From: an uncultured bacterium
GTDB taxonomy: Bacteria; Desulfobacterota; DSM-4660; Desulfatiglandales; CALKZT01
DNA length: 42,369 nt
NCBI GenBank assembly: GCA_938002815.1
Contig: CALKZT010000002.1
Coordinates: 1 to 42,369 of the forward strand
Direction: 5' to 3'
Part shown: one piece after another, positions 5,529 to 35,000 of the stretch
Numbering within the stretch: the stretch's first letter is position 1
How the letters are laid out: each line of letters opens with the position of its first letter
The notes under the pieces: generated by a model
The model's database searches: none
What the model was told of the DNA's origin: nothing
What the model saw: the letters and a program-made list of their open reading frames with translations, nothing else
Position numbers and translations under genes: made by a program

Positions 5529-6751
<1,223 letters not shown>

Positions 6752-21083: not shown

Positions 21084-21135
21084 TCAGTGGGATTTTTATG
21101 TCTCTTTTAACTTCTTTTCATAAGAGGTGTGCCCC

Positions 21136-21462
21136 ATGGGAAGAAGCTCTTTATACCTGTTTTTGGCCTGTCTTTTGACCTTTTCCCATGCCCTCTGGGC
21201 CAAAGGGGAGAAGAGTTATGTGGGCTCCAGGGTATGTGGGGACTGCCATGAGGAGGAATTTTCCAATTTTCAAAGATATGCCAAAAAGGCCCATTCTTAC
21301 CAAAGTATCCTCCGTGTAAAAAAGGGGCTCACAGAGGAAGAGCTGAAGGGGTGCTATGGCTGCCATACTGCAGGGTATGGAGAAGTAGGGGGCTTTGTAT
21401 CTGGAACGAACCTGGCTGCTACCACTGTCATGGAAGTAAGAGACAGGTTTTGGGGGCCATGA
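21136..21462 (+). pseudogene. N-terminal part of a cytochrome c-type chemoreceptor, frame-disrupted
   Basis: An ATG with AGAGGTG upstream opens a secreted or membrane-anchored protein. It has a hydrophobic N-terminus (residues about 5-22), then a cytochrome c554-like segment with heme motifs CGDCH and CYGCH. The frame stops at 21460-21462, but the next frame continues with a third motif, CYHCHG, at 21417-21434 and reaches a run of seven G (21536-21542). There, dropping one G joins it to the membrane helix and signalling domain of the next entry. One missing base near 21400 and one extra G would restore a single protein of about 413 residues. This may be sequencing error or true decay. Confidence 0.7.
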
Positions 21463-21519
21463 TCCTAAGACTGGACGAAAGGGAGGTGAGGCATAGGCTT
21501 CAGAAAGGGATCTTCTACA

Positions 21520-22377
21520 ATGGGGCCTTGGCATTGGGGGGGAGGGATTTTGTTCCTTGTACTCATTGTGCTACTTATAAGATCCAATGTAGTGGCTCCT
21601 GTCAAGGTGATGAGTGAAGGGCTTATGGAGCTGGCAGAGGAGGTCTCCCATAAGGCCCTAAGTTTCAAGGAGAGGGCCTCCGTCGTCTCCCAGGAAAGCT
21701 CGAATCAAGCGGCTGCATTAGAGGAGGTATCTAGCTTTATCCAAGAGATCCTAAGTACAAGTGGGCAAAACCTCACGAGCTCAGGCAAAATGGATTCCCT
21801 CATGAAAGAGATGATCGCCCATATAGTGGCTGTTAATAGGCAATTAGAGGAGCTCACCCAGGCGTTGGGAAAGGCACAAGAGACAGGTCGGGATGCAGCA
21901 AAGATCCTAAAGGGTATAGATGAGATTGCCTTTCAGACAAACCTTCTGGCCCTGAATGCCGCTGTGGAGGCATCCCGTGCCGGTCAAGCAGGAGAGGGCT
22001 TTGCCGTGGTGGCAAATGAGGTCCGAAACCTTGCCCTCAGGGCGCAGGAGGCCTCAAAGGCCACCCATCTTCTGGTGAACCAGATGGTCTCAAGCGTAGG
22101 GGAGGTTTCAGGGGTATTAAAGGACACAAGAGAATCTTATGAAGTGGTGATAGGGATGGCCAAAGAGGGCTCTACCCTATCCAAGAGTGTCTCTGAGGCA
22201 ATGAATCAGCAGGCAGCTGGCCTTGAACAGATGAGAAAGGGTGTATCTGAGTTAGATAGTTCTGTGCAGCAGCACGCAGCAAGTGCCCAGGAGATGGCTG
22301 CCCTGGGAGAGGCCCTGGAATCTTCTGTAAAGGGTCTGGTGGAGTCCATAAACAGGCTGAAGGCCCTGGTCTCATAG
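21520..22377 (+). CDS. Methyl-accepting chemotaxis signalling domain (C-terminal part of the disrupted receptor)
   Basis: This 285-residue segment has one membrane helix (about residues 8-22, ILFLVLIVLLI) and a short linker RSNVVAPVKV without a full HAMP domain. A complete MCP signalling coil follows, with the hairpin tip IDEIAFQTNLLALNAAVEAS and then GFAVVANEVRNLALRAQ. It would contact CheA/CheW and signal to flagella or another output. The start given is the first ATG of the frame and has only a weak ribosome site; the reading most likely continues from the heme-binding part upstream. No che genes are nearby. Confidence 0.85.
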   Translation: MGPWHWGGGILFLVLIVLLIRSNVVAPVKVMSEGLMELAEEVSHKALSFKERASVVSQESSNQAAALEEVSSFIQEILSTSGQNLTSSGKMDSLMKEMIAHIVAVNRQLEELTQALGKAQETGRDAAKILKGIDEIAFQTNLLALNAAVEASRAGQAGEGFAVVANEVRNLALRAQEASKATHLLVNQMVSSVGEVSGVLKDTRESYEVVIGMAKEGSTLSKSVSEAMNQQAAGLEQMRKGVSELDSSVQQHAASAQEMAALGEALESSVKGLVESINRLKALVS

Positions 22378-23383: not shown

Positions 23384-24112
23384 TTAGGGCCTCTTTAGAC
23401 CCAAGAGGAATTCTGTATTCCCTTTGGGCCCACGTATGGGGGACTCCATGAGCCCAATCTGTCTCCATCCCAAGGCCAAAAATGCCTTGGAGACGGATTC
23501 CTTTACCCTTTGGTGGACGGAGGGGTCCCTCACTACCCCACCCTTTCCCACATCTTGCCTTCCGGCCTCAAATTGGGGTTTGATCAGGGCAATCAGAAAG
23601 GCCTCCGGTGTGAGAAGCCCTGAGATCGGAGCTGCAATAAGTCTCAGAGAGATAAAGGAGACATCGACTGTGGCCCCATGCACAGGGAAGGGGAGGTCCT
23701 CCCGTTTTAGGTACCTGATATTGGTCTTTTCAAGAGAGATTACCCTGGGATCAGATCTTAACCTCTGGTGGAGTTGGCCATAGCCCACATCCACTGCTAT
23801 TACCCTTTCTGCTCCCCACTGAAGGAGACAGTCCGTAAACCCCCCTGTGGAGGCACCTACATCTATCACCGTCTTGCCCTGAGGATCTATTCCAAATGCC
23901 TTCAGGGCAGCTTCCAGTTTCTGGCCCCCCCGGCTCACATACTTAGGGGTCTCCTTTATTCGTATGTCTATTAAGGGGTCCAAGAGGTGTCCCGCCTTGG
24001 AAGCCACTTCTCCACATATCAGGACATGACCTGCAAGGATCATTGCCTTTGCCTTTTCCCTGGTCTCTGCAAGGCCTCTTTCCACTAACAGGAGATCTAG
24101 CCTTTTTCTCAT
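23384..24112 (-). CDS. tlyA: TlyA-family rRNA (cytidine-2'-O)-methyltransferase / hemolysin-like
   Basis: This 242-residue protein has an S4 RNA-binding domain at the N-terminus (RKRLDLLLVERGLAETREKA) and a FtsJ-like methyltransferase domain with the SAM motif VIDVGASTGGFTDCLLQ. TlyA methylates 16S and 23S rRNA cytidines in some bacteria. It is the last gene of the nine-gene operon, and its ATG overlaps the dxs stop by four bases (ATGA). The dxs-tlyA pairing is common. Confidence 0.92.
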   Translation of the reverse strand: MRKRLDLLLVERGLAETREKAKAMILAGHVLICGEVASKAGHLLDPLIDIRIKETPKYVSRGGQKLEAALKAFGIDPQGKTVIDVGASTGGFTDCLLQWGAERVIAVDVGYGQLHQRLRSDPRVISLEKTNIRYLKREDLPFPVHGATVDVSFISLRLIAAPISGLLTPEAFLIALIKPQFEAGRQDVGKGGVVRDPSVHQRVKESVSKAFLALGWRQIGLMESPIRGPKGNTEFLLGLKRP

Positions 24113-32008: not shown

Positions 32009-35000
32009 ATGGAAGTGGAAGAGATCATAAGGAGGTTGGAGGAGGAAGATCTATCCATAGAAGGGGTAGAGGGTTCTGGCCTTGCCTTTGTGCTCTCTTT
32101 GATATTCAGACGTTCCCAAAGAAGCATTTTGGTAATCGCCCCCAGCCACAAGGAACTGGAGGAGATGGAAAAGGCCTTTAGGTTCTTTTTGGGGGAGGAT
32201 TCCCAGATAGGTCCACCCTTTGTCTTCAGGGGTTATGACATCTCCCCCCTCTCAGGGATGAGCCCAAATCCCACCATCATAAGGGATAGAATCGAGGCCC
32301 TATACTCACTCATCTATCACCAAAAGAGTCTTGTCATTACCTCACTGGATGCCCTCCTTGGCTATACAGTACCCAAAAGGGAGTTTGGAGACAGTGTAGA
32401 GATGGTCCAAGTGGGAGAAGAGCTGGATATTCTTAGATTTTCCGAGACCCTTTTAGAGATGGGTTATGAGAGGACAGGCCTTGTGGAAAATCATGGTGAA
32501 TTTACCTTGAGGGGGGCAGTTATTGACCTCTTTTCACCCCTCTGGAGGAGACCCCTTAGGATAGAGGTATGGGGAGAGAGGGTGGAATCCATAAGGGAGT
32601 TTAATCCCCTCTCCCAGCGCTCAGAAGCCCAGATGAAGGAGGCCATTATACTGCCCTCCAAAGAGATCCTAAGAAGGCCTCACAACAAGAAAAGGGCCCT
32701 TTCCATGGGTAAGTTACCCCACCCCCATGGGGCTGAGGTCACTTTTTCTGGTGAGGAGGCCTGGATCTACCACTTCTATGAGACCCCTGGCACCCTTATG
32801 GAATATGTGCGACCGGACTCCTTGGTGATACTAATGGAAGACCATAGATATGAAGGCTTATACAAGAATCTACTGGAAAAGATCGAAAAGGAGAGGAGCA
32901 AATTCAGAGAGATGCTATCCCAAAAGGGTGAGCCCTGCCCATTGCTTTTGGAACCCAGATCCCTCTCAGATATCTATTCGGACCTAAGTTTTCACAGAAA
33001 GGTGTACGTGAGACCAAAGGGCATGGGCAGAGGCCTAAAAGGGCTTAGCTGGTCTCCCAATATCCATGAGGCCTTGGAGCCCTTTTCCCTCAAGCTCCAG
33101 AGGAGCAATAGGCCCTCTTTGGTACCCTTTCTGGAGAGGGCAGAATCCTGGGTAGATATGGGGGGGACTGTAATAGTGGTCCTTAGGACCGATAAGCAGT
33201 CCCAAAGGGTAGGGGAGATACTCCAGAACTACCATGTAACCCTAAAAGGGCACCTTGAAAGATGGGGTTGGGAGAGATTGTCTCCCGGGCTCTACACATG
33301 TGAAGGACACATAAACAGGGGATTTCTGTGGCCTGAGATGGGGTTATATGTGGTCACAGAGGCAGAGCTCTTTGGGGCAAAGAGGGGTTACGGGAAGAGG
33401 ATTCGCACAGACCTACTCTCTCCTTCATTCCTAACCGAGATCAGATCCGGGGATCTGGTGGTGCATCAGGAGCACGGCATAGGTAGATACCTGGGCCTTA
33501 CAAGAATGGTGGTGGGAAAAACAGAAGGGGAATTTGCAGTTATAGAGTATGCCAACGGGGATAAGCTCTACATACCCGCAGACAAATCGAGTCTCTTAGA
33601 AAAATATGTGGGCATAGAAGGGGTCCAACCCAAATTGGACGTCATGGGCGGCCATACATGGAGGCTTGCCAAGAAGAAGGCCAAAAGCTCTGTATACAAG
33701 ATAGCCAAGGAGCTTGTGGACCTATATGCCTTAAGGGAGATAAGAAAGGGTTTTTCCTTTAGCCCACCCGATAGGGTCTTCAGGGAGTTTGAGGCCACCT
33801 TCCCCTATGAAGAGACCCCTGACCAGAGCAGGTGCATAGAGGAGGTCCTCTCGGACATGATGAACCAAAGGCCCATGGATAGGCTCATATGCGGAGATGT
33901 GGGATTTGGCAAGACCGAGGTGGCCATAAGGGCAGCATTTAAGGCAGTCCAAGATGGGAAACAGGTCTGTGTATTGACTCCTACAACACTTCTCACAGAG
34001 CAACATCTCAGAACTTTTAAAGAGAGAATGGCACCCTTTGGGGTTAAGGTGGAATCCATTAGTAGATTCAAGACAAAAGGGGAGCAGGAGAGAATACTAA
34101 ACTCCCTTAGGTCAGGGGATGTGGATGTCATAATAGGAACACATAGGTTGCTCCAAAATGATGTAGTATTCAGGGACCTTGGACTCTTGATAGTGGATGA
34201 AGAGCAACGCTTTGGAGTAAAACAAAAGGAATTAATAAAAGGAATTAGAAGCACTGTGGATGTCATATCCATGACAGCAACTCCTATTCCAAGGACACTT
34301 CAAATGTCACTTTTAGGTATAAAGGAAATCTCCATCATAGAAACCCCTCCTGAAAACAGGCATTCGGTTGAAACTTTAGTTTCTGTTTATGATAAGGACA
34401 TTATTAGGGAGGCCATAATCTCTGAGATAAACAGGAAGGGGCAAGTATTCTATGTGTATAACCAGGTGAAGGATATACAAAATGTGTACAAAGAACTAAA
34501 GGAAATTGTGCCTGAAGCGAGGATTGCCATAGCCCATGGACAAATGGATTCAAGGGAGCTTGAGAGCACAATGCTTAGGTTCTTGAATATGGAGATAGAC
34601 GTACTTTTGTCCACCACAATAATAGAGTCTGGCCTAGATATACCCACTGCCAATACAATCATAATAGATGGTGTTGAGAGGATGGGGCTTGCACAGGTAT
34701 ATCAATTGAGGGGTAGGGTAGGGAGATCAGAGGAGAAGGCATTTGCCTTTTTAATGGTAAGAGAGCCTTCTAAGTTGAGCCCAGAGGCACAAAAGAGGTT
34801 AAAGGCCCTGGGTGAGTTTACCCATTTAGGTGCAGGCCTTGCCCTTTCCCTCCATGACCTCAAAATCCGGGGTGGGGGAAATATATTGGGTTTTAAGCAG
34901 TCAGGCCACATAGGCCTTGTGGGCTATGAGACCTATCTGAGATTGATTCAAGAGGCCATCTCGGAGCTGAAGGGGGAGGAGTTGACCGAAGAGATAAATC

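Follow-up and report, generated by a model that had tools for sequence, protein, structure and literature searches.

Does the locus at positions 21127-22377 of the window encode one haem-bearing chemoreceptor, or are its parts the remains of different genes? The window is the whole 42,369-nucleotide stretch of DNA that was analyzed. The original prediction described a single receptor, split by two frame changes, in which three c-type haem motifs precede a membrane helix and a full MCP signalling coil. The reading that we favor is a decayed two-gene operon, whose genes were merged when an internal piece was deleted and were disrupted once more by a second change of frame; on the evidence below, the locus is very probably a pseudogene pair.

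Coding pieces and reading frames of the locus

The ORF list and its translations resolve window positions 21127-22377 into three coding pieces in two alternating frames on the plus strand. The features are listed below, with the frame given as position modulo 3.

21127-21402, plus strand, frame 1: 5' part of a cytochrome with a signal peptide and haem motifs 1 and 2 of four (Pfam, profile A2 and alignment with relatives)
21399-21405, plus strand: putative deletion junction, placed by the overlap of two profile matches (21175-21408 and 21396-21488)
21399-21540, plus strand, frame 0: 3'-terminal part of a receptor's periplasmic haem-sensor domain, with CYHCH at 21417-21431, up to the start of TM2 (profile A1, blastp and codon score)
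21536-21542, plus strand: run of seven G where TM2 begins; the frame changes here for the second time, from 0 to 1 (sequence and codon statistics)
21520-22377, plus strand, frame 1: ORF of 285 amino acids, in which TM2 (about 21541-21579) precedes the cytoplasmic MCP coil (Pfam MCPsignal at 21835-22302)

The cytochrome piece probably starts at GTG 21127 or ATG 21136, and its signal-peptide-like start was judged by eye. CGDCH (21235-21249) and CYGCH (21352-21366) both lie in the frame of the ORF at 21127-21462, whose stop codon (21460-21462) is located 5' of the G run. CYHCHG begins at 21417 in a different frame, within a second piece (about 21399 to 21540) that carries NEPGCYHCHGSKRQVLGAM. The third piece matches MCPsignal with an E-value of 9e-32 and shares 39% identity over 239 amino acids with the receptor of locus L010. 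The ORFs and Pfam thus bear out the predicted order of three motifs, membrane helix and MCP coil. Both frame changes are also real: with 19 other window genes as the training set, codon usage passes from frame 1 to frame 0 (about 21400-21540) and back to frame 1, which is an independent line of evidence. As predicted, the second change falls at the run of seven G, and the end of the sensor (frame 0) and the MCP signalling domain (frame 1) are consequently in different frames. The reading frames that are open now encode a truncated cytochrome with two haems and a TM2-MCP protein that lacks its sensor.

The genes around the locus look whole. A Pfam scan covered 36 ORFs elsewhere in the window, four of which have no family match, and five ORFs beside the locus, and none was seen to be split on inspection. 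Two other seven-base G or C runs inside genes (23925-23931 and 33160-33166) are located in whole ORFs with good family matches.

As a separate observation, the window contains an ATP synthase c-subunit gene of 320 amino acids at 5529-6488 (plus strand), which encodes four tandem c-type hairpins and sits among the genes for subunits a, b and b'. Hairpins 1 and 4 retain a Glu at the apparent ion site (AESAAI and AESTGI), and hairpins 2 and 3 read CQTPAI and AQSTAI. Directly 3' of this gene, a second c-subunit-like ORF (6503-6751, plus strand) encodes a single hairpin with the Glu retained (SESTGI).

From which genes do the pieces derive? The first piece matches Pfam Cytochrome_C554 (PF13435) with an E-value of 1e-9 and 39.6 bits against a cut-off of 20.8. 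Profile A2, an alignment of ten relatives' cytochromes, matches 21175-21408 with its positions 23-100 of 161 (E 1.4e-31), and profile A1, an alignment of nine relatives' sensors, matches 21396-21488 with its positions 153-183 of 216 (E 1.2e-9). Because each is the sole match of its profile in the whole genome, the pieces are more than chance resemblances; the profile search of this assembly detects no further copy of either target at E ≤ 1. In blastp, the second piece matches receptors in eight of eight relatives, with a best E-value of 9e-10 in this small set. The window CYHCH aligns to the relatives' haem motif at the place where profile A1 matches 3b42, which we take to be GSU0935. Judged by these alignments, the first two motifs belong to a tetrahaem cytochrome and the third to a receptor.

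Both remnants are incomplete. The cytochrome piece matches the C554-family profile but carries two CxxCH motifs in the window frame rather than four. On the receptor side, the periplasmic domain has one CxxCH close to its end, with TM2 after it, as in sCache_heme sensors, but a complete PAS/Cache-like sensor with TM1 is absent. The window receptor is therefore a relic that stands outside the GSU0935/GSU0582-type (sCache_heme) group. PF21563 and PF11845 match nothing in the genome, a weak result because control genomes likewise give no match (PF21563 does match relative L012). Seven other MCPs of the genome (L002-L008) contain no CxxCH in the receptor frame, and the plasmid records searched gave no match.

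Intact relatives and the missing middle

The first piece was searched against 61 genomes (its own and 60 relatives drawn from the same order, none of the same genus or family as the window) and against a collection of named genomes. Good matches are proteins of ~165 amino acids with four CxxCH motifs and a conserved tail, and a separate receptor gene lies directly 3'. This receptor comprises TM1, a periplasmic domain of ~140 amino acids that holds a single CxxCH (in many cases CYHCHGSSRKVLGG) and TM2, followed by an output module that is either an MCP or a histidine kinase. The full-length cytochrome occurs in 8 of 85 order genomes (E ≤ 4.1e-68), and all eight loci continue with a receptor whose output is an MCP. 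A phylum sample of 395 genomes yields 43 cytochrome matches in 40 genomes (E ≤ 1e-45).

An intact fusion of the kind that a single split receptor implies was sought among these relatives, and every examined pair consists of separate genes. At 36 of 36 loci (L041-L048 and L059-L086; 8 from the order and 28 from the phylum, all distinct and found through the cytochrome), the cytochrome is followed by the receptor on one strand in separate ORFs. The cytochrome has four CxxCH motifs and the sensor one at each of them, and the first sensor residue lies -1 to 128 nt past the stop codon of the cytochrome. The same arrangement is found in 12 of 12 loci from the named genomes (L027-L038), where the output is an MCP in two, a kinase in nine and cut off in one. 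The two sets may overlap, and L041, L042 and L044 of the 36 are the alignment rows L013, L012 and L014. Among the 43 phylum matches, 42 have an open frame no longer than 228 amino acids, which is too short for a receptor, and the one long frame (L085, 392 amino acids) stops ahead of a separate receptor ORF. Thirteen of the 43 fall outside the neighbor count; their open frames, all of at most 201 amino acids, are too short for a fusion.

The pairing has exceptions. Ten weaker cytochrome matches in the order comprise four that are followed by a kinase-type sensor and six with no sensor in the flank examined (L051 on a cut stretch). From the sensor side, a cytochrome lies upstream in 11 of 16 order matches and is absent in four, and one match (L096) starts at a contig end; the sensor can therefore also exist without the cytochrome. 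The first search also returned cytochromes of other kinds (L015 and L020-L026); no sensor was found next to these, and they are excluded from the count.

Two further arrangements were encountered. In one family of the order (f5), loci L016-L019 (the same as L049, L053, L050 and L052) encode a more distant cytochrome of ~155 amino acids and a sensor histidine kinase in overlapping or adjacent ORFs, and they constitute a second branch of the cytochrome-sensor pair. In L021 (697-1905), L023 (1-1116) and L056 (691-1884, minus strand), a four-motif cytochrome domain of this type forms the C-terminus of longer ORFs (372-403 amino acids), and the upstream part in L021 and L023 resembles, by eye, a metallophosphatase/UshA-like enzyme. 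The L012 cytochrome, too, has a match to NCBIfam UshA_like_PCGU.

What has the window lost relative to the intact pair? The alignment of its cytochrome with relatives ends after GGFVS. At this point, the last cytochrome-like codon (21400-21402) overlaps the first sensor-like codons (21399-21401 and 21405-21407), which are in a different frame, and the end of the A2 match and the start of the A1 match share bases. The corresponding points are 644-740 nt apart in seven order relatives (seven of eight measured; L048 has no match to the search string) and 644 to 878 nt apart across all 14 relatives measured, of 16 tried. Because the two matches abut in the window and are separated by this interval in relatives, the window lacks haems 3 and 4 and the stop codon of the cytochrome, together with the start, TM1 and most of the sensor of the receptor. 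The alignments place a probable deletion junction between two genes at the first frame change. The overlap of a few bases fits a short-homology deletion and may also be chance. The locus thus bears two separate lesions: a deletion that also alters the frame, and another frame change at the seven-G run.

A probable decayed operon and the competing explanations

In the intact operon, the first gene would encode a secreted C554-family cytochrome c with four haems, and the second would encode a chemoreceptor with TM1, a periplasmic single-haem sensor of the GSU0935/GSU0582 type (sCache_heme), TM2 and an MCP coil. The receptor haem would change its ligand or redox state, the PAS/Cache-like dimer would then shift the membrane helices, and the MCP coil would alter CheA kinase activity. 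The tetrahaem cytochrome may give electrons to the sensor haem or take them from it. We infer this electron-relay mechanism for the intact pair, and it is gene order only that suggests the cytochrome as the partner. An internal deletion of ~640-740 nt would have brought the cytochrome, cut off behind haem 2, up against the final section of the sensor in a different frame; at the G run, where TM2 starts, the frame changes once more. The lesions are probably present in the organism and not in the assembly alone, and the locus has presumably lost its function; an intact copy may sit in a part of the genome that is absent from the assembly.

Has the whole locus fallen silent? The MCP ORF runs without a stop for 285 codons with strong coding statistics, which points either to a recent loss or to continued use of the TM2-MCP piece. 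The latter would be a single-TM sensorless chemoreceptor translated from ATG 21520 and kept for a role in the receptor array after loss of the sensor. The good MCPsignal match, an AAAGGG about 10 bases 5' of this ATG (by eye) and a topology that would be the same as in native TM2 agree with such a protein. However, a recent pseudogene would likewise remain open, ATG 21520 lies inside the sequence of the old reading frame by accident, and promoter-like sites are no more frequent than in shuffles. We consider a working sensorless receptor unlikely.

An artefact would explain the locus differently: the organism would have an intact operon, and the deletion would stem from a local misassembly or consensus error. 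The assembly is a draft of 128 contigs with 90.7% completeness and 3.54% contamination, which is compatible with a misassembly or a minority variant. Nevertheless, the junction overlap of a few bases seems too short for a misjoin by a k-mer assembler, the locus has a second, separate lesion, its adjoining genes look whole, and the missing pieces have left no fragments elsewhere in the assembly at E ≤ 1. An assembly artefact is therefore quite improbable. Sequencing error, which the original prediction offered for the second break, is rejected as the sole cause: about 640-740 nt are absent at the first break, and a wrong base call does not produce such a gap.

The original prediction also considered slippage or phase variation at the G run, by which a true three-haem fused receptor would be produced across programmed frame changes. 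Seven G at the second break and the shared frame of the cytochrome start and the MCP coil make this a tempting reading. Yet the locus lacks the last two haems of the cytochrome and most of the sensor fold, and in none of the 43 cytochrome matches from the 395 phylum genomes does the open frame hold a receptor as well, so the fused receptor is rejected. Phase variation is unlikely too: the cytochrome frame terminates upstream of the run, so the number of G has no bearing on the making of a fused product. The chance that a programmed fusion exists here is very slight.

The decayed two-gene operon thus replaces the tri-haem, phase-variable receptor with ordinary gene loss. The c-haem sensor joined to an MCP, which the original prediction recognized, did exist, but the locus derives from two genes and not one. 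A plain pseudogene, its stated alternative, is the better fit, with the amendment that intact homologues do exist, as two genes.

The cytochrome-sensor pair and known haem sensors

The relic itself is ordinary, and the conserved cytochrome-sensor pair is the more interesting by-product. A tetrahaem cytochrome adjoins a receptor with MCP or kinase output at all 36 loci found through the cytochrome, which points to a protein redox partner. We tentatively propose, as one joint hypothesis, that the two genes of the intact operon form a redox antenna in two parts, in which electrons pass between a dedicated tetrahaem cytochrome and the single haem of the sCache_heme receptor, that chemotaxis or a histidine kinase thereby reads the state of the periplasmic electron pool via a protein partner and not by direct binding of a gas or ligand, and that in the window lineage a deletion abolished this sense, perhaps leaving a bare MCP coil in place. 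The pair makes the input question for GSU0935-type receptors testable with two small proteins.

The sensor profile of the relatives matches the structures 3b42 (E 4.1e-11) and 3b47 (E 5e-8) of the Geobacter c-haem MCP sensors GSU0935 and GSU0582, including the NExxCxxCH segment, and the L012 sensor matches PF21563 (Mcp40H-20_sensor; E 1.6e-7). Like these receptors, the relatives have two TMs followed by an MCP or kinase; unlike them, the window keeps just the last part of the sensor with its haem motif. According to the available portion of PMC12889525, 3B47 is GSU0582 of Geobacter sulfurreducens, sensors of the GSU0582/GSU0935 type are classed as sCache_heme, and one membrane protein of the group has NO-binding properties. 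The available portions of PMC8396549 and PMC3460858 describe swapped dimers, an axial haem ligand that changes with redox state and differing midpoint potentials. The predicted redox or gas taxis receptor finds support at the family level, since these three sources, as far as available, present redox and NO sensing as the subjects of study and both as proposed inputs of GSU0935-type receptors. DcrA of Desulfovibrio vulgaris, a c-type-haem MCP credited with redox or oxygen sensing in the available portion of PMC8396549, is alike by that description.

A description of the cytochrome-sensor gene pair was not found in the open literature, which omits many subscription papers, and the available portions of PMC12889525, PMC8396549, PMC2577667, PMC3460858 and PMC13401364 describe no such pair. 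Unlike the GSU0582/GSU0935 receptors as described in those portions, the relatives' sensor has a tetrahaem cytochrome gene directly upstream. This cytochrome resembles cytochrome c554 (PDB 1bvb; A2 profile match E 2.9e-10), the L012 protein matches PF13435 (E 4.9e-17), and all 36 relatives' loci share with the c554 family the four CxxCH motifs per chain, of which the window copy has two. Unlike 1bvb (211 amino acids), the relatives' protein has ~165 amino acids and a conserved KPxxxxGxH-like tail and is paired with a sensor gene. Among sensors of known kinds, the intact cytochrome-sensor pair represents a variant.
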